A stretch of DNA of 45,591 bases, from IMG/VR virus record IMGVR_UViG_3300046683_000683, positions 1 to 45,591 of that record; one strand, written 5' to 3'. The translations under genes were made by a program, and so were the position numbers. Source of the DNA: a virus. Under the pieces are notes generated by a model, which saw only the letters and a program-made list of their open reading frames with translations, had not been told where the DNA came from and did not search any database. Positions 17,039 through 34,611 of the stretch are shown piece by piece; the first letter of the stretch is position 1; each line of letters begins with the position of its first letter.

Positions 17039-17845
17039 TCACCACTCCTTCTGCGGAACAGGCACGAGGGCAATGCGCCGCTCACGCAGCAGCACTTCCG
17101 CCTCGTCCACGAGGAACCACGCGAAGCCGAGGAAGGCGTGAAGCCAGTTCCGGCCCTCGGTCGTGGGCTCAGCAGCATCTTCTAGAATCTCAAGACCGAG
17201 CTTGGTCTTCGGCATGTTCACAGCTAGTCGCTGCTCGCCATCGGCGTGGCCGACAGCAGCGAGGTCGATGCCGAGCATAAAGCTCCAAGCATAGACGCCA
17301 TGCAGCAGGGCGCTGAAGGGTCGCGGCACGTCTCGACGAATCGGTGAGAAGTGCACGGCTGCGCCGTCGTTGTTGAACAAGACGCCATCGTGCTGCTCGA
17401 GGTCGATTCCGAGAACGTGGAGTCGCTGGTGAGCAATCTCATGAACGATGCCCTCAGCACAGCCTGTCGGATCGTTGACAGTCACAGAGATCGTTAGATT
17501 GCCATTCTCGTCTGTCGGTTGTTGATGACCGCTGCTGCAGCCGCGACCTTCACCCGCAGTCGTCGAGACGTGCGGGATGAAGGAGTCAATGAGCGCAGTC
17601 AGTGGCGGTGCGAGCTTCCAGCGCTTCAGCGCAACTGCTGCCTGCCAGACTCGGGCATCGTCGAACTCGGCGAGCTTCATCTCCGGCAGCATCAGCGGTC
17701 CAGCTGCGAGCTTGGTCCAGATGAACGCCAAGCCCTCAACCGGCGAGACTCGAGGCCAGCGAAGTCGCGCAAGCCGCTTGAGCTCAAGCGTGTCGCTACC
17801 GTCAGCTTGCGGTGCCGCCAACTTCGCATAGCCACTCAGTGCCAC
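17039..17845 (-). CDS. HExxH protein resembling peptide beta-hydroxylases of RiPP clusters
   Basis: 268 aa from a GTG at 17845, with GGAG seven bases upstream and a 10-base overlap with the preceding gene; longer frames start inside that gene. The metal-binding motif HEIAH (His135, Glu136, His139) lies in GCAEGIVHEIAHQRLHVLGI. It is followed by HFSPIRRDVPRPFSALLHGV, the second conserved block of the aKG-HExxH peptide modification family found beside FxsB-type radical SAM enzymes. The family members hydroxylate peptide side chains using iron and 2-oxoglutarate. With a radical SAM maturase in the same operon, a role in modifying a tail protein is likely but unproven. Confidence 0.7.
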   Translation of the reverse strand: MALSGYAKLAAPQADGSDTLELKRLARLRWPRVSPVEGLAFIWTKLAAGPLMLPEMKLAEFDDARVWQAAVALKRWKLAPPLTALIDSFIPHVSTTAGEGRGCSSGHQQPTDENGNLTISVTVNDPTGCAEGIVHEIAHQRLHVLGIDLEQHDGVLFNNDGAAVHFSPIRRDVPRPFSALLHGVYAWSFMLGIDLAAVGHADGEQRLAVNMPKTKLGLEILEDAAEPTTEGRNWLHAFLGFAWFLVDEAEVLLRERRIALVPVPQKEW

Positions 17846-19104
17846 GAGATCACTCCAGCCTCGGTCGTTCCGGACTTCACGAGCATCGAGGGCAGCGGCA
17901 GCCCTGACTTTGAGCAAAGCGTGCCGAGATCCTCGCCGGCGTACGTGTAGACGATTAGCTTCTTGATTCCACGCAAGCGAGTCAGCAGCGGAGCGAACTC
18001 GTCAGCGCGGATCTCGAGCAATCGGCCGGGCATCAGCAGTGCAGCGTCTGCGCCCCAAGCGTCGATGGGAAACGCTTCGAGCTTGCCGACGAGGAAGTCG
18101 ACTGCTGGATGGCGTCGAGCTCCTCGCGCTGCTCGCTCCTTGTCGCTCTCGACCCCGATGCACTTGAGCAGCGAGTTGCGAATCCACAGCTTCGAGAGCA
18201 GCGTTCCGTCTCCACAGCCGAGGTCGATGACTGTTCCATTGGTCTGGCCGCAAGCACTGAGAACGGTCGCGTGCGCAGCGGCCATTGCGTTGTAGGAGCT
18301 GAAGCCGTTGTCGGCATACGGCGTCGGCTCGATCTTCGGAACAGTCAGCTCGGCACTCGGCTGCCAAGAGAATCTCACCTCGCCGGGAGTGTAGTCGGTC
18401 GAGAATTCAAACTGGAAGCCGCGAGCTCGCACGTAGGCGAGGCCATGGTAGGCGCTGTACAGGGCAGGCAGTGAGAGAAGCTCGACGGCCGCTGCTGCTC
18501 CTGAGCCGAGACCAAGCTGGACGGCAACGCCGATCATCGCTTCAGCAATTGCTGCGCTCGCTGTGCAGGAGTAGGAGCAAGGAAGATGCGGAACGAGTCG
18601 GACGCCGAGCTGGCGAAGAAGAACATTCGTTCCAGGGTTGCCTCCGACCACGGTTGCGCCGTGTGCTTGCGCTCGCGCGCTATCACGCACGCCTGCAATC
18701 TGCCAAGTGTCACGGAAGAAGGCGCGGCAGCACGAGGGAAAGCCGAGCAGCTCACCGATGGCCTCGTCGTCGTTACGATCCCAAGCTTCTGTCCAACTCC
18801 GGCTGAAGCGAGTAAGCGCAACTCGCACGCCTAACGAGCCAGCCGTTGGCGTAGCATTTGAGTATGCTGCGCCTAGCGGTTGTTCAGTGAGAACGACAAG
18901 CTCGAGTCTGTTGTCCACGGCCCAGCGACTGAGAGACGGCAGCTCGCAGTATGGAACAGCGAGAAGACAGCTGTCTCGCTGGCGAAGCCGAACGCTCTCG
19001 CGCTCGAGCACCGGCCACGTTGCAGAAGCATCCGCGATCTTCCCACGGAGCGAGTCTGCATCCGCTGCCGAAGCCCAGATCGGACCGCGAACATACTCAC
19101 GCAT
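17836..19104 (-). CDS. DUF483-like domain fused to SAM-dependent methyltransferase
   Basis: 422 aa; ATG at 19104 after GGAGGAGG. The first half has LLGFPSCCRAFFRDTW (Cys125, Cys126) and RLVPHLPCSYSC (Cys176, Cys180), the Cys blocks I associate with DUF483. The C-terminal half is a class I methyltransferase with motif I TVIDLGCGDG (292-300) and an acidic loop, CIGVESD. The paired Cys motifs could bind metal or an Fe-S cluster. It lies between a tail-fibre region and the HExxH gene, overlapping both neighbours, so it probably acts in the same modification pathway. The DUF483 assignment is from memory of the pattern. Confidence 0.7.
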   Translation of the reverse strand: MREYVRGPIWASAADADSLRGKIADASATWPVLERESVRLRQRDSCLLAVPYCELPSLSRWAVDNRLELVVLTEQPLGAAYSNATPTAGSLGVRVALTRFSRSWTEAWDRNDDEAIGELLGFPSCCRAFFRDTWQIAGVRDSARAQAHGATVVGGNPGTNVLLRQLGVRLVPHLPCSYSCTASAAIAEAMIGVAVQLGLGSGAAAAVELLSLPALYSAYHGLAYVRARGFQFEFSTDYTPGEVRFSWQPSAELTVPKIEPTPYADNGFSSYNAMAAAHATVLSACGQTNGTVIDLGCGDGTLLSKLWIRNSLLKCIGVESDKERAARGARRHPAVDFLVGKLEAFPIDAWGADAALLMPGRLLEIRADEFAPLLTRLRGIKKLIVYTYAGEDLGTLCSKSGLPLPSMLVKSGTTEAGVISWH

Positions 19105-19462
19105 GCTGAACCTCCTCCTTCTTCTCGACCGTCTGCAGCAGCCAGTTGATTGTGTCGTGGATGATTCCCTGGACTTCAGGCCGCCAGGAGGTCGTCTGCA
19201 AGTAGCGGAAGATTAGCACGAGCTCGGCTTCAGTAATCTCGATCGTCGTCGGCCCTGGCAGAAGCCGAGGCATTCGAAGACCGTACGGCAGCGCCCGATC
19301 GTCTGGAACTGAAGCAGCGTCAAGCTTCTCGAGCAGCCGGGTCAAGTCAGCGAGCAAGAGAACATCCTGCTCGCGTGGCGCTGCCATCATCAGCGCGCCG
19401 TAGATGTATTGGAATCGGATGGGATCGGGATCGTCGGTGAAGCGAAGAACAGCAGTTGTCAT
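19097..19462 (-). CDS. Tail-region hypothetical protein (121 aa)
   Basis: ATG at 19462 with GAGGT upstream, overlapping the fibre stop (ATGA). Starts LRFTDDPDPIRFQYIYGALM; mostly helical, with ITEAELVLIFRYLQTTSW and NWLLQTVEKKEEV. It sits between a short fibre and the DUF483/methyltransferase gene. It could be a fibre chaperone or a partner of the modification enzymes; no family is recognised. Confidence 0.65.
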   Translation of the reverse strand: MTTAVLRFTDDPDPIRFQYIYGALMMAAPREQDVLLLADLTRLLEKLDAASVPDDRALPYGLRMPRLLPGPTTIEITEAELVLIFRYLQTTSWRPEVQGIIHDTINWLLQTVEKKEEVQHA

Positions 19463-20010
19463 GCGAACCTCTGAGCAACGATGAAGCTGTTGGCACGGAA
19501 GATTGTGTTGACAGCGACGGCAGCGTTCTGCGCCATCTGAATCTGAATTGCTCCGGCCGTGGTGCTGTTGATAACGAAGCCTTGCATGATGAGAGTGGTC
19601 TCGACGTTCAGACCGGTCAGCGCAAGCCCTGTGCCGTAGGCCGTGCCTGCGGAGCCAGTGCCTTCTCCGATGATGCCGAGCTGTCCGGTAGCGCCGGCAG
19701 GAGCAGTCGCTGTCACCTTGAACGTCGCTCCCGCGCCGCTGATGGCTTTGATGTATGCCGCCCACGCCCATTGCTCACTGGCAGCAATAGGGAATGTGAG
19801 ACCAGGCGCATCTCCGAGCGTTGTGTTGTTGTTCTTCGTCAGCGCGGAAGTCTGCTTACCGACGACAGGGTAGATCGGCAGCAGCGAGTCGTTGATGAGA
19901 ACGTTCACGAGAGACTTGAGAAAGTTGAGATTGTCTCGGACGTGCGTGTTCATCAAGTCCGCTGTGACGGTCTCGCCCGGGTTCCACGTTCGCGGAGTCG
20001 TCCACGCCAT
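19459..20010 (-). CDS. Short tail fibre protein (183 aa)
   Basis: ATG at 20010 directly follows the stop of the radical SAM gene, with GGGAGG upstream. The N-terminus WTTPRTWNPGETVTADLMN, then HVRDNLNFL, is the attachment module shared with two other proteins here (22841-23122 and 22037-22837). The rest is a Gly/Ala/Thr-rich beta region (APAGATGQLGIIGEG, TTLIMQGFVINSTTAGAIQI) typical of trimeric fibre tips. A receptor-binding role is likely. Confidence 0.8.
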   Translation of the reverse strand: MAWTTPRTWNPGETVTADLMNTHVRDNLNFLKSLVNVLINDSLLPIYPVVGKQTSALTKNNNTTLGDAPGLTFPIAASEQWAWAAYIKAISGAGATFKVTATAPAGATGQLGIIGEGTGSAGTAYGTGLALTGLNVETTLIMQGFVINSTTAGAIQIQMAQNAAVAVNTIFRANSFIVAQRFA

Positions 20011-21240
20011 TTACTTCCTCCCTCCGAAGTCGGTATGATCGCCATGAGCATCGCCGTGCTCGACAGCTGAAGAAGAGTTGAAGCCGCTGCCTCGAGAAGC
20101 GAGAGCGGAAGCACGACGGATGGAGACCTGACGTCCTGCCTCCCATTCCCAAAGGGCAGCGGCTTCGATCTGTTTGCGGTGCGGAGCGAGGCTGAGAGGC
20201 AGCTCGCGAGTTGCCAGAAGCGCTGCTTCGAGATGCTCGAAGAGGCGGAACCAGATGCCACAGTTCGCACTCCTGTTCCGCGGATCGCCGAGCATGGCTT
20301 CGCCAGGGCACTGGCCTTTGCACATTAGAAAGAATCGACAGTCAGCACAGCCGCCGTCGGCAAAGGGAGTAGCGTACAGCGCGAGCTGGCGAGCGTAGCT
20401 CGGCGTCTCCGACTTCAACCACGAGACGTCTGTCTTGTACGTTCTCGCGCAGTTCAGCAACTCTCCTTGCGGACCGACGGCCTGAACGGCCGCCGTCGTC
20501 TGCGGATCGCAAGCGTTCCAGATGCACGTCGTGCTCTCGTCGTCACCACGCAGGAGTGCCAGCATCTCCTTGAAGATGTCGAAGTGGATGCCGAGCATCG
20601 GCTCAGCTCGATGCAGGGTCACGAGAGCCTCGAACGCCTCCTCCTCGCCGAGCGCAAGCTTTGCCGCCTCCGGCGAATCCACCTCGAGAAGATGCAGTCG
20701 AGCATTCTGCAAGCCGAGCTCGGCTAGCGTCTGAAGCCACGAGAGGAGCAGCTTGATCCTCGAGCGCGAAGCGTTCAAGGAGTGAAGGGTGAGGATTAGA
20801 CTGCAAGGAATCTCGCGACGAAGCAACTCCTCAAGCGCAGCGCAACTCTTCGCCGTCGCGCTTCTCGTCGCTTCCAGCGTCTCGAGTCTTCGAGCGTCGT
20901 TGAGCTCGGCTGGTCCGTCGATGCTGACTCCGACGTGCGTCTTGTACTTCTCGAACATCTCGAAGTGTGCCTCAGTGATTAACGAGGCGTTCGTCTGAAC
21001 TCCGGAGGAGCCGCTAAGCTTGAAGCTGCTCTCAAGAAACTTCTCGAGATCAGCAAGAGGAGTAAGGAGTGGCTCGCCTCCGAACACCGTGAAGCCCGAG
21101 CTTCCGCCGATCTTCTCGAGGCTCGCGAGCATCTTGTCCATGGAGTAGGGTGGCGCTGCAACTTCTCGCACTGTCTCCTGGTAGCAGTACGTACAGCGAA
21201 GGTTGCAGCGAACTCCGACCGGCATTGCTTCGACTGTCAT
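20011..21240 (-). CDS. Radical SAM/SPASM peptide or protein maturase with HxD tail
   Basis: 409 aa; ATG at 21240 overlaps the upstream TGA. The CxxxCxxC cluster motif is CNLRCTYC (Cys12, 16, 19), followed by GGEPLL. The C-terminal SPASM region has CIWNACDP, LLNCART, CADCRFFLMCKGQCPGEA and NCGIWF, enough Cys for auxiliary Fe-S clusters. Such enzymes install carbon-carbon, thioether or ether crosslinks in peptides. The last 19 residues (AVEHGDAHGDHTDFGGRK) are an unusual extension matching the HxD repeats of the fibre encoded two genes upstream. It lies inside the tail-fibre operon, so a structural protein is the likely substrate. Confidence 0.9.
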   Translation of the reverse strand: MTVEAMPVGVRCNLRCTYCYQETVREVAAPPYSMDKMLASLEKIGGSSGFTVFGGEPLLTPLADLEKFLESSFKLSGSSGVQTNASLITEAHFEMFEKYKTHVGVSIDGPAELNDARRLETLEATRSATAKSCAALEELLRREIPCSLILTLHSLNASRSRIKLLLSWLQTLAELGLQNARLHLLEVDSPEAAKLALGEEEAFEALVTLHRAEPMLGIHFDIFKEMLALLRGDDESTTCIWNACDPQTTAAVQAVGPQGELLNCARTYKTDVSWLKSETPSYARQLALYATPFADGGCADCRFFLMCKGQCPGEAMLGDPRNRSANCGIWFRLFEHLEAALLATRELPLSLAPHRKQIEAAALWEWEAGRQVSIRRASALASRGSGFNSSSAVEHGDAHGDHTDFGGRK

Positions 21241-22022
21241 AGCCCGAGTCCTGTCGGAGGAGTCGGCGGCGTGACGGCAGGGTTTATCAAGATCGTGTAG
21301 GATCCCTGTCCGGTTGCGCCGAGCGAGTCGGTTGCGAGAACTCGAAACGTCTTCGTCTGCGCAAGCGTAGGCGTGCCAGTGATCGTGCCGTCGATATTCA
21401 CCACGAGCCCTTGCGGTGGCCGGTCTGGACTGACGAGAGCGAAGGAGCTAAAGACTCCGCTTCCGCCCATGGCGCTGACTCTCGAGGAGTATGGAACGCT
21501 GACTTGGCCAGTCGGCAACGTGGCCGGCAGCATCGTGACGGGATGAGGCAGCGCGGCGGTAGGGTAGATTTCAATCACAAGAGTCCTCGTGCCGATTGCT
21601 CCGGCGGAATCTGTCACGGAGAAACTGATCGTCTGCCGCTGGACGCTTGTCGGCACGCCGTAGATCACGCCGGTCGTTTCGTCGAGTGAGAGACCGATCG
21701 GAAGTCGAGCTCCACCGTTGAAACCGTACTTGACGTAGTTTCCCGTTCCGCCGGAGGCGCTGATCTGCGCAGCGTAGCTGACGTTGACTGCTCCAGCCGG
21801 CAGCGAAGCAGGGATGACCGTTATCGGCTGGACTTGCAGCAGCAGTGCGTCGATCTGAGCTTGCATGGAGTCCAGTACAGCTTGCGTTCCGTTCAAGTCG
21901 CGAATGCGAGCTTGGACGAAGGCAATTACATCGTCTGTCGTGATTCGGCCCTTGGAGGCTAGGAGCAAAGCTTCCACTTGCCTCGCAAACGTCAGCAGCT
22001 CAGATGTGATATCGACTGCCAT
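21237..22022 (-). CDS. Tail fibre/adhesin with two Ig-like (He_PIG) domains
   Basis: 261 aa; ATG at 22022 after AGGAGAG. An N-terminal helical segment (LLTFARQVEALLLASKG...DDVIAFVQARI), likely coiled coil, is followed by two similar beta domains. Each has the He_PIG signature of the form LPxGxxxVxYxxxxxxxGGxG and GLxxxxxxGxIxGxPT (LPAGAVNVSYAAQISASGG...GVIYGVPT and LPTGQVSVPYSSRVSAMGG...GTITGTPT). Such domains mediate weak binding to cell-surface polymers. It ends in a Pro-rich tail. The gene lies directly upstream of the radical SAM gene, overlapping by four bases. Confidence 0.85.
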   Translation of the reverse strand: MAVDITSELLTFARQVEALLLASKGRITTDDVIAFVQARIRDLNGTQAVLDSMQAQIDALLLQVQPITVIPASLPAGAVNVSYAAQISASGGTGNYVKYGFNGGARLPIGLSLDETTGVIYGVPTSVQRQTISFSVTDSAGAIGTRTLVIEIYPTAALPHPVTMLPATLPTGQVSVPYSSRVSAMGGSGVFSSFALVSPDRPPQGLVVNIDGTITGTPTLAQTKTFRVLATDSLGATGQGSYTILINPAVTPPTPPTGLGL

Positions 22023-22036
22023 CGGTCTCTCCTCTT

Positions 22037-22837
22037 CTACGTCGGCTGGTCGCCGTGAGCGACGTCACCGTGGCCGGCATCAGTATGAGTATCGGTATGA
22101 GTATCGCTATGCGTGTCAACATGCGCGGCATCCGCATGAGCGTCAGCATGACCGGTGTCCGAGTGATCGGTGTGAGAGTCTTGATGCGCAGTGTCGGTAT
22201 GCGTATCGCTGTGCGTGTCAACGTGCGCAACGTCGCCATGGCCGGAGTCAGTGTGAGAGTCAATATGACCGAACATCTCACTTGTGCCGGTCTGAATAAT
22301 CCAATGGAGATAAGTCGTCTCGCCCCAGAGGCTCGCCGCGCTTGCAGCTGCGTCGCTGTGCATTGCAGTCGCTGCGCCGGGAACGATTCTCTCGACGCCA
22401 GTCGAGGAGATGTAGTGGAGATCGCTGCCCTCGATCCAGATGCTCCCAGCGAGCGCGCCACCGCCAGGCGAGCCGTTCGAGGTGCCAGCGAACGTCTTAG
22501 TCGTTCCTGCGGAATCCTTGTAGACAAGGTTCTGCCCGACGACTGCCATGTCTCCTGCATCCGTCCCCGTGTACGCTCCTTCAACCGGGATGACTAGTCT
22601 TCCTGCTCCGCTGAAAGTGTTCTTCGCCGTCAGCGTGTTTGCCGAGGCGAGCAGCCCGACTCCTGTTAGATTGAGTCCGCTGAGGTCGAGGAGGTAGGAG
22701 GAGCTGAGTCCGAGAATCTTCCCCGCGTCGTTCCGAGATGTCTTCAGCACGTTCAGATTGTCGCGAATCTGCTCGTTGAAGTCGTCGTGATCCGGAATCG
22801 GAATCGTCGACCAGTCAACAGGAGTATGCCAGCTCAT
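22037..22837 (-). CDS. Tail fibre with C-terminal His-X-Asp repeat array
   Basis: 266 aa, ATG at 22837. Three regions are visible: an attachment module (MSWHTPVDWS...EQIRDNLNVL), a beta region (SANTLTAKNTFSGAGRLVIP, shared with the gene upstream, up to about residue 190), and a tail of 73 residues (191-263) built of 17 HxD units separated by zero to two residues. The repeat has an extreme composition (His, Asp, Thr, Ser, Ala, Gly). It could coordinate metal ions along a trimeric fibre axis or be the substrate of the nearby radical SAM and HExxH enzymes. Both roles are inference. Confidence 0.85.
   Translation of the reverse strand: MSWHTPVDWSTIPIPDHDDFNEQIRDNLNVLKTSRNDAGKILGLSSSYLLDLSGLNLTGVGLLASANTLTAKNTFSGAGRLVIPVEGAYTGTDAGDMAVVGQNLVYKDSAGTTKTFAGTSNGSPGGGALAGSIWIEGSDLHYISSTGVERIVPGAATAMHSDAAASAASLWGETTYLHWIIQTGTSEMFGHIDSHTDSGHGDVAHVDTHSDTHTDTAHQDSHTDHSDTGHADAHADAAHVDTHSDTHTDTHTDAGHGDVAHGDQPT
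22049..22267 (-). repeat. His-X-Asp codon repeat, 17 units
   Basis: Encodes residues 191-263 of the fibre: H-I-D, H-T-D, H-G-D, H-V-D, H-S-D and so on. The DNA contains related but non-identical 9-12 base units, for example around GTATGAGTATCGGTATG, so the array probably grew by slippage and then diverged at synonymous sites. Confidence 0.85.
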
Positions 22838-22840
22838 TGC

Positions 22841-23122
22841 TTACGTTCCCCACTTGTCCGCGCCAGTCGGAATCACGAGCCGACCTGCACCAGAGTAAGT
22901 GTTCTTCGCCGTCAGAGTGTTCGCGCTCGCGGTCTTTACTACTCCCGTGAGATTTGCTCCGCTCAAGTCTGCAAGCGTTGAGCTTGAGAGTGCGCTGATC
23001 TTGCCAGTTGCGGTGTCGACCGGAACAGCGAGAATCGTCATGTTGTCTCGGATCTGCTGATTGAGATCAGTTGCAGTCACGAGCTGGTTCGGAGTCCACG
23101 TTGCTGGAGTTGTCCATGCCAT
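22841..23122 (-). CDS. Small tail protein, attachment-module paralogue (93 aa)
   Basis: ATG at 23122. The N-terminus MAWTTPATWTPNQLVTATDL, then QQIRDNMTIL, aligns with the two other attachment modules. LSGANLTGV and ASANTLTAKNTYSGAGRLVIP match residues 53-84 of the HxD fibre closely. It stops where that fibre continues, so it is either a short connector or a partial duplicate of the fibre's N-terminal part. It lies directly downstream of the tail-tip gene. Confidence 0.75.
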   Translation of the reverse strand: MAWTTPATWTPNQLVTATDLNQQIRDNMTILAVPVDTATGKISALSSSTLADLSGANLTGVVKTASANTLTAKNTYSGAGRLVIPTGADKWGT

Positions 23123-23132
23123 ACTTTTCTCC

Positions 23133-24728
23133 TTACGTACTCAGCCGAGTGTCTGTGCCAGTCGTGCTGACACCGAGCAGCCAGAAGCGATTCCAGAGCC
23201 CGTAGGCGAGCTTGGTTGTCTGATCGAGCTGGGATTGCGTAGCGCTGTCGAGAATCCAGTAGACATCCCGCGAAGCGGGAGCGAGCGTCCAAGTGCAGTG
23301 CATAACGTACTCTTCATCAACGGTGATCTGAACTCGGTTGATGAAGAAGTCCGCACTGACTCCCGTTACCTCGTCTTGGATTGTGATTCGGTCGCTGATT
23401 TCTCGAACGATTGCTTGCTCTGTGAAGGTTGCGTCTCCACAGATGAAGCCGCATTGCTCGGGGATTGTGTCCTCGGTCTTGTTCGTGTTGAGCAAGTAGT
23501 ACGCGGCTTGCCGAGCGATCTCTGTCTGCGCTTGGTACGGCATCTCGAACGGCAGCGACTGATCGCCAACATCTGCTTGGCTCGTTGCGTCTGCTGCTTC
23601 GAAGATAACCTCGCCATTGTCATAGATTCCGATTCCTCGCAGCTGGTTGAGGTTGAGATAGCCGTCTTGAGGACCGTTGTTCGTAACGACAATGTCTGCC
23701 GCGTTGCCGTAGGCGACTGTTCCGGTGAAGCTGAGCTGAGAAGTGATGTTCGTTCCGCTGCCGTCCTGTGCGGTGTTGAAAAGATAATCGGTCGTGGCGG
23801 TCGGAGGAATCTGAACGCTCGAGGCTTGAGCGCCGATGCGCTGGGAGTCTTGACTGTTGTCCTTGTACAGCGCTTTGATTGTGTAGCTCGTTCCTCGGGG
23901 AATGAACGGCTTGTCTTGCTGTGTGTAGATGACCGTCAACGAGGCGTCTTGCCGCCGCGGGTGCATCTTCACAAGGACTCGGTTGAAGATGTTGTCTCGC
24001 GAGCGCTTAGGATCGAGCGCGTTGACTGAGGTGAAAGTCGCAACGGAAGTCAGATTCGTTCCGCGAGCTCGCCGATCCTCGAAGACCACGAGTCCGTCGT
24101 TGACGCTGTCTCCCTTCGGATAGAAGAAGCCGAGCTCGGAGTTGCAGATTTTCTGAATCTCACCGAGCGCTGCGAGTCCTTCGTCTCGAGCCGTGTCGAA
24201 GGCGAAAGGATACGTCTCCATGCCGAAGCCAATCTGCCGAGTGATCGGTTGCTTCACCATGGAGTTTAGAAGTGTCGTGATAAGCTCGTCGCTGCGCTTG
24301 TTCGTCTGGACGTCGAGACCTTTCACCGTTGCGCGCGCCGCCTCGTCCATCCAGTCGACGGCTTGGAAGATTGTCCTCTGCTCGCCATACAGTCCCGGAA
24401 TCGGAGCAATCTCGCTAATCCTCCCGTTCCACTTGTAGTAGGTTGGAACGAGAGGATCATAGGCGAACCAAGCTCGAACAGGCGTGCCGAGCTTGAAGCC
24501 GCTGCGAGCATTCGCATGGCCGGGAGAATAGAGTCCGACTTTCTTCTGACTGTTGTTCGCGGAGTTGTTCAGCGCGCCATGAAGCGTGCCAGTATCAGCA
24601 ACTCGATCACTTGGACTCTTTCCCGAGATGCCGTAGTCGAAGTCAATCGGCCGGATGAGATCATCATCCACGCTCGTCCACACGCCTGGCGAGAACTGCA
24701 TCTCGACGTGGAGAGTGAACTCACTCAC
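23133..24728 (-). CDS. Minor tail / tail-tip hub protein
   Basis: 531 aa, ATG at 24728, overlapping the tape measure stop by four bases. Position (after tape measure, before fibres), length and beta-rich sequence fit the hub or distal-tail protein of siphoviruses. Features include SPGVWTSVDDDLIRPIDFDY near the start and VYWILDSATQSQLDQTTKLA near the end, the latter a common ending in actinophage-like minor tail proteins. It would link the tail tube to the fibres and probably contacts the DNA-ejection path. No enzymatic motif is seen. Confidence 0.8.
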   Translation of the reverse strand: MSEFTLHVEMQFSPGVWTSVDDDLIRPIDFDYGISGKSPSDRVADTGTLHGALNNSANNSQKKVGLYSPGHANARSGFKLGTPVRAWFAYDPLVPTYYKWNGRISEIAPIPGLYGEQRTIFQAVDWMDEAARATVKGLDVQTNKRSDELITTLLNSMVKQPITRQIGFGMETYPFAFDTARDEGLAALGEIQKICNSELGFFYPKGDSVNDGLVVFEDRRARGTNLTSVATFTSVNALDPKRSRDNIFNRVLVKMHPRRQDASLTVIYTQQDKPFIPRGTSYTIKALYKDNSQDSQRIGAQASSVQIPPTATTDYLFNTAQDGSGTNITSQLSFTGTVAYGNAADIVVTNNGPQDGYLNLNQLRGIGIYDNGEVIFEAADATSQADVGDQSLPFEMPYQAQTEIARQAAYYLLNTNKTEDTIPEQCGFICGDATFTEQAIVREISDRITIQDEVTGVSADFFINRVQITVDEEYVMHCTWTLAPASRDVYWILDSATQSQLDQTTKLAYGLWNRFWLLGVSTTGTDTRLST

Positions 24729-29886: not shown

Positions 29887-30278
29887 CAGCGCACCTTCAT
29901 CTCTTTCGCTATGTCTTCCATCATCGAGCCGCCGGTCTCAGCGAGCCAGGCTTTCTGGAGGAACTTCTGGCCAGTTCCTGGAGGATTGAAGACGATTGTC
30001 TTCCCCTCCCAGCTCGGCGGATCGTGTTTGGAAGGGTTCTCGTGGACAGCGATGGCGTGTTCTGCGGTGAAGACAACTGTGACCGACCGGCCTTCTTTCG
30101 AGACGATCAGCTCGGCGCTTCCCCTGAGAATTCCGTCTCGCTCCGGAGCGTTCTCGACAGCCGTCTCCTTGACCCTCTTGCCGACTCGCAGAAGTCCCGC
30201 TCGAGCGCGCTTGCTGAAGTCGCCTCCCAGCTTCCGAACGTTCGCGCGTACTCGCGCGGAATCAAGCTTCGACGGCAT
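29886..30278 (-). CDS. Neck protein, HK97 gp10-like
   Basis: 130 aa, ATG at 30278. Helical N-terminus (DFSKRARAGLLRVGKRVKET), then APERDGILRGS and VTVVFTAEHAIAVHENPSKH, with KFLQKAW near the end. The pattern AP-x-x-x-G-x-LRxS with a following strand and xxAxxVHE is typical of the HK97 gp10-like connectors between head and tail. It is separated from the other connector genes by the inserted sugar cassette. Confidence 0.82.
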   Translation of the reverse strand: MPSKLDSARVRANVRKLGGDFSKRARAGLLRVGKRVKETAVENAPERDGILRGSAELIVSKEGRSVTVVFTAEHAIAVHENPSKHDPPSWEGKTIVFNPPGTGQKFLQKAWLAETGGSMMEDIAKEMKVR

Positions 30279-31425
30279 CTTCCACCTTGATAGGTTGAAG
30301 AACAGAGGAGACTTCTTCGGCGAAGCGTGCGCCGATCTTCTCCCAGCGGAAGCGAGGCTCGCCGATCAGAGACAAGCCTTTCCTTCTGAGCTCCGTCCGA
30401 AGATCCTGCTCGCGGTACAGCCGGTCGAAAGCAGCGATCATCTCTTCCTTGTCCGGGATTCCGCCGACTGCGTTGATGTTGTTCGGAGTGCAGGAGACGG
30501 TCGGACAGCTGATCTGAAGCGACGCTTCTCTCGGCCACTCGCCCGTCGCCGACCACGCCGGCAGGATCTGCGGAATACCGCAGGCCATGGCTTCCATGTG
30601 GCAAAGCCCCCAACCTTCGTAAGCTGTCGAGAACATCCCGTCGAAGGAGGAGTAGACGTTTCGCATTGCAGCATCCGAAGGCCCGCAGCCCGTGCGAGGT
30701 TCTCCGACGATCATCCTCGCGCTGATGCCCAAGTATTCGCCGAGCTGTTTGATATCGAAGCCGGAGTCGCCGGTCGGAGCGACGTGCAAGTACAGATAGG
30801 CGTTCTTGACGTCCTTGCTCTTAACCCACTCGGCGAAGTACATCATGGCGAGGTCGATCCGCTTACGCGGCTGGTTGCGACCGACAACGCCGAGGATGAA
30901 AGCAGAGTCTCGCATGAACGACGGCAGGCCTTGCCGAGCTTCACTCCGAGGAACAGGGTGGAAGACGTTAATATCCACGCCGAGCGGAATGACTGAGCTC
31001 GCTCCGAGAAACCCTCCGAGCCTCGCCTCTCGCTCGCCGAACTCAGTCCAGAAGATCACCTTCTTACATCCGTTCATCTCGTTGCCGCGGCAATTCTTCC
31101 CGTCGACCGCGACGCTCGCGACCATCGGCGTACCTTTGCAGGCATCGAGGTAGACTGCAATGTTCCACGGATCATTCGTCACGCAGACGACGTCCGGGCG
31201 GATTTGCTTGATGAGTCCCGGGAGTCGGCGAAGCCCGAAGCCGTCTCCGCCGCCCAAGGCGTAGGGAGGGTAGATCGGGTACGGAAAGCCATGCGGATCG
31301 CCGAAGTAGTTGATCGCGAGCATATGCACTTCATGCCCTGCTCGCAGCAGGCCGTCTGCATATGCGTGATTCATCCGAGCGAAGCCGGTCTGCACCGCGC
31401 CGTCGCCCACCAGTAGTACTCTCAT
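30262..31425 (-). CDS. Glycosyltransferase, GT-B (group 1) family
   Basis: 387 aa; ATG at 31425, overlapping the upstream stop (ATGA). The N-terminus MRVLLVGDGAVQTGFARMNH has the usual Rossmann strand and Gly loop. The donor domain has VIPLGVDINVFHPV, FILGVVGRNQPRKRIDLAM and YEGWGLCHMEAMACGIPQI, where the E-x7-E motif is EGWGLCHMEAMACG. It transfers a sugar from an activated donor, probably the one made by the neighbouring aminotransferase and acyltransferase. Its position between neck genes suggests co-expression with virion proteins. Confidence 0.92.
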   Translation of the reverse strand: MRVLLVGDGAVQTGFARMNHAYADGLLRAGHEVHMLAINYFGDPHGFPYPIYPPYALGGGDGFGLRRLPGLIKQIRPDVVCVTNDPWNIAVYLDACKGTPMVASVAVDGKNCRGNEMNGCKKVIFWTEFGEREARLGGFLGASSVIPLGVDINVFHPVPRSEARQGLPSFMRDSAFILGVVGRNQPRKRIDLAMMYFAEWVKSKDVKNAYLYLHVAPTGDSGFDIKQLGEYLGISARMIVGEPRTGCGPSDAAMRNVYSSFDGMFSTAYEGWGLCHMEAMACGIPQILPAWSATGEWPREASLQISCPTVSCTPNNINAVGGIPDKEEMIAAFDRLYREQDLRTELRRKGLSLIGEPRFRWEKIGARFAEEVSSVLQPIKVEDAVEA

Positions 31426-32141
31426 GCTTGCCTCACTTTTAGAGATGGGACGACGCCAATGCGAAACCCCTGAGCGCGCGCGTCTTCGCACCAACCGACG
31501 AGGCATCCCTCGTTGCGAATTCTCGCGCTCCTCGCTACGTGTCCCCGCATAGCAAGACAGGAGCCGACGCTGCTAACTTCAAACACGTCTGATTCGAGTA
31601 CTCCAGGGAAGAACGGGGAGAAGGGCGCGAACCTCCGACCGTCAAGTCCTCGGAAACCCCAGATGTCGTAGAAACATTCTCCTGCCATGACGAGAGGAGC
31701 GAAGACGTCGAAGCCAGCTGGCCGCTCGTCTGCGAGCAGCGCGAGCTGCATCAGTGTCTCCGGCTCCCAGAACAAATCGCTCTCGACGTAGACAAGAAGG
31801 TCGTCTTGATCTGTGATGCTGCGAAAGATCGCATTTCCGACGAGTGAGAGCGCGGCCATTCTCTCCGGCGACTCCGTCGAGCCGAACTCCGGGCCACCAT
31901 GGTTGCACTTCACCAGCTCGAGGGAAAGATCGCGACTTCGCGCTTCAGCTAAGAGCATCTCGTCCGTTCCGTCAACGGAGTCGCCCTCCACTGCAACGAC
32001 GCGCAAGCGGCCGGGCCAGATGCTTCGCAGACGGTCAACTTGAGCGAGGTAAGAGGGCACACGACCGCGGCAATTCCTGTGCGCGGAGCCAACTACAAGG
32101 TTGACCGGCACTCTCGTTCCCTCGTCTCCGTGGTCATGCAC
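31422..32141 (-). CDS. Glycosyltransferase, GT-A type (CAP59-like)
   Basis: 239 aa, ATG at 32141. NLVVGSAHRNCRGRVPSYLA and LRVVAVEGDSVDGTDEMLLA give the GT-A nucleotide fold; DDLLVYVESDLFWEPETLMQ carries the acidic metal/donor site. The block NC-x-x-R...V-x-x-VEGDSxDGT resembles cryptococcal mannosyltransferase (CAP59/Anp1-type) proteins. It probably adds the first or a branching sugar of the glycan built by this cassette. It starts at the last base of the upstream methyltransferase stop. Confidence 0.82.
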   Translation of the reverse strand: MHDHGDEGTRVPVNLVVGSAHRNCRGRVPSYLAQVDRLRSIWPGRLRVVAVEGDSVDGTDEMLLAEARSRDLSLELVKCNHGGPEFGSTESPERMAALSLVGNAIFRSITDQDDLLVYVESDLFWEPETLMQLALLADERPAGFDVFAPLVMAGECFYDIWGFRGLDGRRFAPFSPFFPGVLESDVFEVSSVGSCLAMRGHVARSARIRNEGCLVGWCEDARAQGFRIGVVPSLKVRQA

Positions 32142-32677: not shown

Positions 32678-33225
32678 TGCGAAAGCTCCCGCTTCTTCGC
32701 AAAGCGCGCGGGCGATCCGATCCAAATCTCCCAAGGCGGAATGTCTCTCGTTGCTAAAGAGTTCGCCCCGAGCACTGCGCCCTCGTGAAGCGTGACGCCC
32801 GGGAGGACCACCGAGTTAGTCAGCACGCACGAATAGCGCTCGAGGCGAACGAAAGAAGTTTGTACTCGCTGCATTTCTACCGGCGCAGCTGCGCTCATGC
32901 TGAGGGCGTCGATTTGATTGCTCCCGCTGATAAGCTTGCCACCGGAGGCCACGCAGGAGAAGTCGTCGAGGAAAGTGCTGCCACCACCGATGCCGAGATG
33001 CGCAAAGCTCGCGATGTGGACGCCTCGGCCGATGTGCAAGCCGGTTCCTCCCTCGAGCTTGACGAAGGAGTCGATCCGAGCGCCCGAGAGCACGACGATC
33101 TTGTGCTCCTTCGTTCTCACGATTGGCTCGTAGAAAACAGCTGGCGGAAGATCATGCAGCAGCTCGTCGATCTCGAGTCCGTCCTTTAGAAAGCGGAGCA
33201 TTCGACCGTACTGTTCTTCGCTCAC
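32674..33225 (-). CDS. Hexapeptide-repeat acyltransferase
   Basis: 183 aa; GTG at 33225 after AGGAGG. Left-handed beta-helix repeats run from ARIDSFVKLEGGTGLHIGRG through ASFAHLGIGGG to CVLTNSVVLPGVTLHEGAVL, ending in VIGSPA-like WIGSPARFAKK, the classic ending of sugar O- or N-acetyltransferases. Adjacent to a DegT aminotransferase it most likely N-acylates the new amino sugar. It overlaps both neighbours by four bases. Confidence 0.9.
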   Translation of the reverse strand: MSEEQYGRMLRFLKDGLEIDELLHDLPPAVFYEPIVRTKEHKIVVLSGARIDSFVKLEGGTGLHIGRGVHIASFAHLGIGGGSTFLDDFSCVASGGKLISGSNQIDALSMSAAAPVEMQRVQTSFVRLERYSCVLTNSVVLPGVTLHEGAVLGANSLATRDIPPWEIWIGSPARFAKKRELSQ

Positions 33226-34259
33226 GCTACCACCTCCTCGAGCACACGGAGCAGGCTGCGAACGACATACTGAACGTCCAGCAGCGTCATTCCGAGATGC
33301 AGCGGCAGCACGAGTCCGGTTTTCGCAAGCTCTTCTGCAACTGGCAGACTCTGCTCTCGCCGATAGATCGGCTGCGTGTGCAACGCGGGAAAGATCGGCC
33401 GAGTCTCGATGCCGTATGTCTCGAGCTCAGCAGCGACGCGCGGAGCGTCTTCGACACAGACCGGCATCACCCAGTCGACGCTTCCTGCGGGTCGAGCTTG
33501 CAGCCGAACGCTGCTCCCGAGCCGCGCTCTGTACACATCTGCAAGCTGACGCCTCCGGCGCAGCGCGTCGTGGATGAGCTCAATCTGCCCACAGCCCAGC
33601 GCCGCCTGGAGGTCGGTCATTCTGTAGTTGAAGCCGAGCGTCTCGTGGATGTAGCGCTGCGCGCCACTCGTCCCTTGTCCTCGGAGCAGCCGGACCTTCG
33701 CTGCAAGCTCGTCGGAGTTCGTGAGTACCGCTCCGCCTTCTCCGGTCGTGATGATCTTGTTTCCGTAGAAACTGAGAACGCTGATGTCTCCACCGATCGG
33801 CACGCCGTGTGACTCGCAAGCGTCTTCGAGAACCCAGACTCCCGGGATGAAAGGTCGTCCGCAAGGAACGCCGTAGAGATTGACCGTCACAATCCCGACT
33901 GCATCAAACTCCCTGACTGCTTCCTCCGCTTGCTCAAGATCGAGAGTCCAAGTGTGCGGGTTGACGTCTGCGAAGATCGGCACTGCACCGCAATACCGCA
34001 CAGCGTTTGCCGTCGCAATGTAGGAGCAGGCCGGCACAACGACCCTGTCTGCCGGCTTCACTCCCAAGGCAAGGAGCGAAGTGTGAAGTGCGGCTGTTCC
34101 GCTAGAGACTGCAACAGCGTGCTGTGAGCTCGCGAGCGAGCGAAGGAAGCTTTCAAACTGCAGAACGTACTTCCCCATCGACAGGCTCTTAATCCTCAGC
34201 GCTTCCGTAACGTACTCAGCCTCACGGCCGAGAAACGTCGGCTCGGCTAGTCGAATCAC
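33222..34259 (-). CDS. DegT/DnrJ/EryC1 sugar aminotransferase
   Basis: 345 aa from a GTG at 34259; longer frames start within the upstream gene. PLP-enzyme motifs: AVSSGTAALHTSL, VVVPACSYIATANAV, WVLEDACESHG, and SFYGNKIITTGEGG with the PLP lysine Lys168. GFNYRMTDLQAALG is the standard family block. Such enzymes make 4-amino-4,6-dideoxy sugars (perosamine/viosamine type) or 3-amino sugars from keto sugars. The keto-sugar supplying enzymes are not in the window, so the phage probably draws on a host pool. Confidence 0.94.
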   Translation of the reverse strand: MIRLAEPTFLGREAEYVTEALRIKSLSMGKYVLQFESFLRSLASSQHAVAVSSGTAALHTSLLALGVKPADRVVVPACSYIATANAVRYCGAVPIFADVNPHTWTLDLEQAEEAVREFDAVGIVTVNLYGVPCGRPFIPGVWVLEDACESHGVPIGGDISVLSFYGNKIITTGEGGAVLTNSDELAAKVRLLRGQGTSGAQRYIHETLGFNYRMTDLQAALGCGQIELIHDALRRRRQLADVYRARLGSSVRLQARPAGSVDWVMPVCVEDAPRVAAELETYGIETRPIFPALHTQPIYRREQSLPVAEELAKTGLVLPLHLGMTLLDVQYVVRSLLRVLEEVVA

Positions 34260-34272
34260 TCCGCCTCGTGCT

Positions 34273-34611
34273 TCACGCAAAGTACACCACTTCGTGATGA
34301 GAACCGTTCTCGTCGGGCTCGAGGTTGACTGCGATCGGCTCCGGAGATGCAGGAGAAAACTGCGCCGGCAGCGAAAGCTCGTAGTCAATCGTGAGTCCGT
34401 AGACTCCGGCAACGTACATCGTCACGGCCGACTTCTTCTCCACGCCCGAGACTTGAACTTGCCTATGCTGATTCACGCAACGGCCGTAGATGACTTGTCC
34501 GCTACCATAGGCAGTTGGCGCGCCAAGAATGTCTCTCGAGAGAATCTGCCTTGCCGTCACGGCATGAGGGAACATGCCTTCGGTAAGCAAGTCGTCGACT
34601 ATACTCCTCAC
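34273..34611 (-). CDS. Head-tail connector / neck protein (112 aa)
   Basis: GTG at 34611 overlaps the preceding TGA. A beta-rich protein with VIYGRCVNQHRQVQVSGVEK and YVAGVYGLTIDYELSLP, followed by an acidic end. Its place after the first connector and before the neck protein suggests head-tail joining or head completion. No confident family match. Confidence 0.65.
   Translation of the reverse strand: MRSIVDDLLTEGMFPHAVTARQILSRDILGAPTAYGSGQVIYGRCVNQHRQVQVSGVEKKSAVTMYVAGVYGLTIDYELSLPAQFSPASPEPIAVNLEPDENGSHHEVVYFA

Follow-up and report, generated by a model that had tools for sequence, protein, structure and literature searches.

A His-x-Asp tract at the end of a viral tail protein as a putative many-site substrate of a neighbouring radical SAM/SPASM enzyme

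A putative tail(-fibre) protein encoded in a 45,591-base record of a tailed virus (the window, i.e. the whole stretch of DNA analysed here) ends in a tract of 17 His-x-Asp (HxD) units. We give a probability of roughly 70% to the reading that a radical SAM (rSAM)/SPASM maturase encoded by the phage itself acts on this tract at many sites and would form one three-residue cyclophane per unit. The reading grows out of computed results, namely the tract, its conservation, its linkage to the enzyme, the aromatic rule that the units follow and the class of the enzyme. The rSAM gene is found two genes downstream of the HxD gene, on the same strand (Table 1).

Table 1. Features of the window in and around the HxD gene
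Feature	Position	Strand	Basis
531-aa minor tail protein	23133..24728	-	C-terminal sequence, by eye, like the segment leading directly into HxD tracts in other viruses
93-aa paralogue of the N-terminal module of the HxD protein, without HxD tract	22841..23122	-	58% identity over residues 1-92
Putative substrate, tail(-fibre) protein with C-terminal HxD tract, 266 aa	22037..22837	-	no family match; homologues exist
Folded beta-hairpin part, residues 97-191	22265..22549	-	'GSxWxE..LHYI..G.ER' motif common to other HxD proteins; AlphaFold2
HxD tract, 17 units, residues 191-263	22049..22267	-	translation; AlphaFold2 block means pLDDT 41-54, all coil
Putative protein with an Ig domain (He_PIG), its gene lying between the substrate and maturase genes	21237..22022	-	PF05345 2.6e-20
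Radical SAM/SPASM maturase, 409 aa	20011..21240	-	PF04055 1.3e-14; NCBIfam; cysteines invariant across 16 relatives
Short HGD-A-HGD-HTD run at the maturase's own C-terminus	20029..20058	-	sequence
183-aa tail protein	19459..20010	-	N-terminus, by eye, like that of the HxD protein (MAWTTPRTWNPGE...RDNLNFLK)
DUF483-like domain (GFPSCC motif) fused to SAM-dependent methyltransferase, 422 aa	17836..19104	-	below Pfam cut-offs
Predicted aKG-HExxH-type peptide beta-hydroxylase, HEIAH at residues 159-163	17039..17917	-	TIGR04267 53.1 bits, cut-off 40; start codon uncertain

A preliminary description of this DNA had put 17 units, separated by zero to two residues, within residues 191-263, and this is exact: they start at residues 191, 195, 200, 205, 209, 213, 218, 222, 225, 230, 234, 239, 243, 247, 251, 256 and 261, i.e. 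3-5 residues apart. The 78 residues from 189 onward hold 17 H and 17 D, and 10,000 shuffles of the tract composition gave a mean of 3.5 HxD and a maximum of 10, against the real 17. The tract is not built from tandem repeats of DNA: codon use is mixed (CAT 10, CAC 7; GAC 11, GAT 6) and Tandem Repeats Finder returned only two short weak arrays over the tract DNA. The same description had called the protein a tail fibre. That label is supported, since the gene comes after those for the tape measure and the 531-aa tail protein of a caudovirus that also encodes portal, terminase, head and major tail proteins; a shorter paralogue lies next door. The 266-aa protein has no match in Pfam, PHROGs or NCBIfam, a single-protein scan of viral contigs found nothing, and an HxD alignment has no match among PDB sequences; tblastn in the phage collection with the low-complexity filter on gave no match for this protein or for an FxN-rich relative. 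AlphaFold2 folds the hairpins before the tract and renders the tract as low-confidence coil, a prediction that is uninformative about a modified chain.

The preliminary description proposed a search for HxD-repeat fibres and their genome neighbours, and this search found many viral tracts. Viral contigs were scanned with DNA patterns for four HxD units, in two spacings, and bacterial and archaeal contigs with one of two HxD spacing patterns, with no rSAM in the query; the resulting counts rest on the matches listed for one viral spacing and for the bacterial/archaeal scan, the other viral spacing being complete. An HxD class was defined blind to neighbours as a run of at least 12 HxD, with at least 5 different x residues and at least 80% of His in units, a rule that L110 and L281, with few distinct x residues, do not pass. 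Three copies of the window (L004-L006) were left out of all counts, and the window and the Thermus phages (L001-L003), which were found through the rSAM, were left out of this linkage count, as were tracts with less than 300 nt downstream (4 of 53). Among the matches listed the class comprises 53 frames, 49 of them with at least 300 nt downstream, and an rSAM gene follows on the same strand in 48 of these 49 (43 of 44 without near-duplicates), often starting a few codons before the HxD gene ends. The sole tract of the 49 without an rSAM is a bacterial K/D-rich sequence. Other HxD-containing frames among the matches listed have an rSAM in 10 of 160 cases, all of them borderline tracts on viral contigs and none from the bacterial/archaeal scan. 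Nine loci without an rSAM nearby were searched over their whole records; it was present elsewhere in four and absent from five, all linear fragments. The clearest exception is L110, with 39 HxD units in the interior of an 18.9-kb fragment.

The linkage is also observed from the side of the enzyme. Among the best 80 of 149 rSAM relatives, a run of at least 8 [HYFW]x[DN] adjoins the rSAM in 74 loci, while such runs appeared in 3 of 400 residue-shuffled versions and in none of 116 control loci from which HxD frames had been removed. A DUF483-type gene is found in 75 and an HExxH gene in 5 of these 80 loci. The six loci without a run of 8 (L314, L316, L317, L318, L327 and L361) come from whole records that are fragments of 7.8-16.2 kb, two of which contain a few HxD-encoding DNA matches. 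As many contigs are common to both scans, the HxD-first and rSAM-first tests are not independent.

The enzyme belongs to the radical SAM/SPASM class. Its CxxxCxxC motif is at residues 12-19, and C12, C16 and C19 are invariant in 16 rSAMs, as are SPASM cysteines 244, 264, 298, 301, 307, 311 and 327. SPASM domains follow the pattern CX9-15GX4C, CX2CX5CX3C, C, and the layout here (C244-x14-G259-x4-C264, C298-x2-C301-x5-C307-x3-C311, C327) agrees with it. The best NCBIfam model for the window rSAM is DynA (78.5 bits, cut-off 450), and AmcB (71.7/425), YhhB (55.8/445), GrrM/OscB (52.6/310) and HxsB (TIGR03978; 35.6/370) likewise stay below their cut-offs. Sulfatase maturase is also among its best named relatives and scores as well as the cyclophane enzymes; sulfatase maturases make no cyclophane. 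The AmcB, YhhB, DynA and sulfatase-maturase models match all 16 rSAMs examined. Since every named maturase score is far below its cut-off, we treat the rSAM as a family of its own, whose reaction is not readable by homology. The rSAM domain of ChlB is among its best PDB matches (6.6e-18). A single-protein scan of viral contigs with the window rSAM found nothing; the rSAM alignment did find relatives. At least one HxD follows the SPASM cysteines in 66 of 81 distinct rSAM frames, and this tail may be self-modified, a pseudo-substrate or a dock. Two rSAM genes stand in tandem behind one HxD protein at L042:10391-13315, the first ending in several near-identical copies of a PHGDHTDQALVEGIVDR unit, and in L387 (the record of L034) the rSAM frame has one in-frame TGA, reflecting frame damage, sequencing error or recoding.

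The units obey an aromatic-x-Asp/Asn rule. The composition set comprises 88 tract zones with 9,896 residues; it covers the window and the Thermus phages but not L127 or near-duplicates. In this set 98.6% of His have Asp at +2, and unit starts are mostly 3 to 12 apart. With a fixed +2 partner and variable spacing, the unit spans three residues and each unit is independent of the others, which fits an enzyme acting per unit and does not fit a regular stalk. Free Asp is found at +2 of F in 24/117, of Y in 31/178 and of W in 5/33 cases, against at most 3.3% for other residues except D (17/212) and C (1/11). Where His has no Asp at +2, Asn is there in 10/29. In the rSAM-first zones (best 80 of 149), which were anchored on Hx[DN] only, Asp/Asn stands at +2 of 133/236 Phe, the next-best offset counted giving 29/215, and at +2 of 222/592 F/Y/W versus 620/11,050 for the rest. 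Because the pooled sequences are related, a Fisher value on these counts overrates the certainty and the count per locus is safer: F/Y/W are above the rest in 49 of these loci and below in 2. Thr-x-Asn is somewhat raised in the rSAM-first set (206/1,707), presumably through HTDN. Beside the same rSAM family, the tract of L360 (2151-3197) is dominated by FxN (33 of 41 units); that of L383 is dominated by HxN (16 of 20). Covariation of motif type with the rSAM tree was not found by Mantel test (Asn, r 0.094, 65 of 999 permutations as high; non-His, r -0.009).

We infer the reaction, its bond, the order of steps and the mechanical role (a rigid, resistant tail tip) as follows. As first made, the tail-tip protein would end in a long and disordered run of aromatic-x-Asp/Asn units. 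The maturase would take hydrogen from the Asp/Asn beta carbon at i+2, and that carbon would be joined to the aromatic ring at i, mostly the His imidazole, giving one three-residue ring (cyclophane) per unit. Beta carbons may next be hydroxylated by the HExxH enzyme of this virus, and methyl groups may come from its DUF483-methyltransferase fusion; the rSAM possibly modifies its own HxD tail too. At the tail tip this would yield a stiff rod or adhesin that resists proteases and heat and carries up to 17 small rings; the largest relatives have more than 100 motifs. Ring closure is proposed since the aromatic-x-Asp/Asn rule falls inside the known cyclophane rule and ChlB is among the closest solved structures. 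Known three-residue-cyclophane enzymes join i and i+2, aromatic ring to beta carbon, where i is Trp, Phe, Tyr or His and i+2 is Asn, Asp, Arg, Ser or Ala; known bonds are C3(Tyr)-Cb(Asp), C2(His)-Cb(Ala/Arg) and Phe/Trp-Cb(Asn/Asp) (PMC11002830). Asp and His that neighbour a cyclophane are hydroxylated by ChlH, an enzyme of the HExxH class (PMC12636437). Probably a widespread group of tailed viruses makes such a poly-cyclophane fibre, with tens to more than 100 rings, and in some of these viruses the fibre would also be hydroxylated and perhaps methylated.

The rSAM could instead modify the aromatic-x-Asp/Asn units in another manner, i.e. by epimerisation, a His N-Asp Cb bond like that of dynobactin, a methyl or other group, or bonds between units or between chains. 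We hold this to be possible, if on the unlikely side. Any motif-specific rSAM reaction would fit the linkage and motif evidence, DynA is the best NCBIfam model for the window rSAM, and in dynobactin the enzyme installs two cross-links, one C-C and one C-N (PMC11002830). An aromatic residue at i with Asp/Asn at i+2 is, however, what an i to i+2 ring predicts, while epimerisation or methylation would have no need for F, Y, W or H.

We find it improbable that a trimer holds iron or some other metal through its HxD units, in the manner of the HxH motifs of T4 gp37, with the rSAM a chance neighbour or a modifier of something else; the preliminary description had raised such a metal-binding trimeric stalk as one option. 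His and Asp are good metal ligands; the side chains of Phe and Trp are not. Iron binding by HxH is known from T4 gp37, and a model-based description exists of a phage that has six of these motifs (PMC11705849). Yet F, Y or W take the place of His and Asn that of Asp, some tracts being mostly FxN, so that a metal stalk is not supported as the shared principle of these tracts. The irregular unit spacing is moreover unsuited to a regular trimeric stalk, AlphaFold2 gives coil for the tract, and HxH is rare (5 of the 29 non-HxD His in the 88 zones).

The rSAM matches 10 of 50,697 phage records, closely only in three Thermus phages (40-46% identity over 99%). The gene before the rSAM encodes 53 HxD units in phiMa (phiMa_29) and 54 in Cumys (Cumys_13), both with the laboratory strain T. 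thermophilus HB8 as recorded host, while phiLo has three HxD-rich frames (55, 101 and 72 HxD) about 4 kb from the rSAM on the opposite strand. All three carry a DUF483-type gene after the rSAM, and the Thermus phage rSAMs end in a short HxD run. IS605-type transposase genes stand directly before the phiLo rSAM gene (L003:12815-15449); given these and the HxD genes on the other strand, the module may have moved there. An 'rSAM module' (rSAM, DUF483 and another protein of unknown function) was reported in 2024 from Thermus phages, Cumys and phiMa among them, and from prophages (PMC11437467). There is a slight chance that the rSAM-DUF483 module modifies DNA, as was proposed for Cumys and phiMa from cyanobacterial homologues among deazapurine genes (PMC11437467), and that the HxD protein is unrelated or accessory; one cyanobacterial rSAM relative does lie near PLD-domain and DUF2325-like genes. 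Against this, the rSAM is tied to the tract, often with an overlap of a few codons, the same HxD motif recurs at the rSAM C-terminus (66/81), and the rSAM resembles peptide maturases. A close rSAM was found in 1 of 386 cyanobacterial genomes and in none of 400 Chloroflexota genomes, the latter search being run without a positive control. In the cyanobacterial-group locus L393:2771-16515, a cellular rSAM and DUF483-type pair is flanked by two fibre-like genes with coiled coils, one of which has repeated THDQ heptads, and a PLD-domain gene and a DUF2325-like gene are nearby; an HxD tract was not found in this neighbourhood.

Substitutions were counted in 10 disjoint pairs of related tracts. Non-synonymous change per site is 0.081 at H and 0.069 at D, against 0.425 at x and 0.323 in linkers, and synonymous change at H and D is ordinary (27-28%); H and D are under strong purifying selection and x and linkers change freely. 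The preliminary description had set plain disorder, combined with loss of the HxD period in homologues, against itself. Coil is indeed what AlphaFold2 gives, but the HxD unit is strongly conserved, so by that measure the description is not refuted. Least probable of all is an unmodified, disordered, charged tail (adhesive or a pH switch) whose units persist by repeat turnover: the low-confidence coil suits it, but H and D are under strong selection while x and linkers vary freely, the units follow the aromatic rule and a maturase partner is constantly there, all of which speak against it.

The last HxD lies at most 14 residues from the frame end in 51 of 52 frames, a few of which are truncated where the contig stops, and by blastp single linkage the N-terminal parts joined to tracts fall into nine families, of which one is large (70/86) and one collagen-like; from this position and these different families, the tract travels as a module. 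Relatives have about 10 to more than 100 motifs per tract, and HxD-bearing frames elsewhere reach more than 1000 aa. Collagen-like GPTG-type fibre sequence leads into a mixed HxD/HxN tract at L333:2501-4183 and L342:2680-5286, the latter also with FxN.

We note further genes of the window. The Ig-domain protein is likely a tail decoration. No family match was found for the 183-aa tail protein in Pfam or PHROGs searches; a 224-aa frame (19097-19771) overlaps its gene, and probably only the second half of that frame, from an internal start, is a gene. On the 422-aa fusion, DUF483 (PF04467) scores 18.7 bits against a gathering cut-off of 25, but the protein is related to the Cumys protein annotated as DUF483, hence the label 'DUF483-like'. 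Its model (pLDDT 87) has a methyltransferase fold at residues 258-422, and among the matches listed by Foldseek and VIA-align almost only this half was matched; the DUF483 alignment has no match among PDB sequences, nor has the HExxH protein. Relatives of the latter keep the HExxH motif, and two of five scanned reach the TIGR04267 cut-off. Between the head and major tail genes lie a glycosyltransferase and an aminotransferase gene (30262-31506 and 33222-34412), possibly for a surface or virion glycan.

If the cyclophane reading is true, this would be the first virion protein with radical SAM cross-link maturation and the most densely ring-closed ribosomal product. To our knowledge, radical SAM peptide stapling comes from small natural products and none from virus particles, and we know of no earlier virion protein matured by radical SAM cross-linking and no more densely ring-closed ribosomal product. 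Among the papers listed by searches of the open-access literature, none described HxD tracts in phages or phage tails modified by an rSAM. Phages would gain very stiff, resistant tail tips from disordered polypeptide; the 'rSAM module' of Thermus phages would acquire a purpose, and DUF483 and viral HExxH enzymes a context. Natural enzymes might then staple dozens of sites per chain under a very loose aromatic-x-Asp/Asn rule.

Several known systems invite comparison. (i) T4 gp37-type HxH needles likewise have a His-rich short motif in a phage tail tip, but the viral tracts differ by HxD/N, aromatic substitutes, variable spacing and a dedicated maturase; the window tract contains no HxH, all 17 units being HxD. 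(ii) His-Xaa-Ser (Hxs) systems share His-x-small/polar repeats beside rSAM genes, and maturation by HxsB/HxsC has been called putative (PMC9062424). The viral tracts have Asp/Asn instead of Ser (HxD in 17/17 window units) and HxsB reaches only 35.6 of 370 bits, so the multiple modification sites of the preliminary description hold in substance, with an rSAM/SPASM maturase beside nearly every tract, whereas its parallel with His-Xaa-Ser proper does not. (iii) The Cumys/phiMa module is the same gene set; that paper suggested DNA modification, and here the HxD tract of Cumys_13/phiMa_29 was seen, the words 'histidine' and 'tail fiber' not being found in the paper's main text (PMC11437467). (iv) ChlB/ChlH also pairs an rSAM with an HExxH beta-hydroxylase, acting on a cyclophane peptide with hydroxylation of Asp and His (PMC12636437), but the two are fused, whereas the viral rSAM and HExxH are separate genes, with the hydroxylase in 5 of the best 80 of 149 loci and a tail protein as substrate. 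(v) Similar in operation are the triceptides and their three-residue-cyclophane enzymes (XncB, OscB, MscB, YxdB, HaaB, YhhB, ScaB), in which an rSAM stands beside an aromatic-x-X3 protein and residues i and i+2 are used; His, Tyr, Phe, Trp and Asp/Asn are all within the known chemistry, as in the viral tracts (PMC11002830). The window has the rSAM core CxxxCxxC, a SPASM domain and a neighbouring aromatic-x-Asp/Asn substrate. Triceptide enzymes fall in curated families and their precursors are short and leader-bearing; by NCBIfam scores the viral rSAM lies outside the curated cyclophane families, and the tract belongs to a large tail protein instead of a short precursor peptide with a leader. 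For these two reasons we do not class the system as a triceptide system, although it would work like one. Its enzyme is carried by viruses with DUF483-type genes, and as substrate it has a virion tail protein whose C-terminal part holds about 10 to more than 100 motifs.
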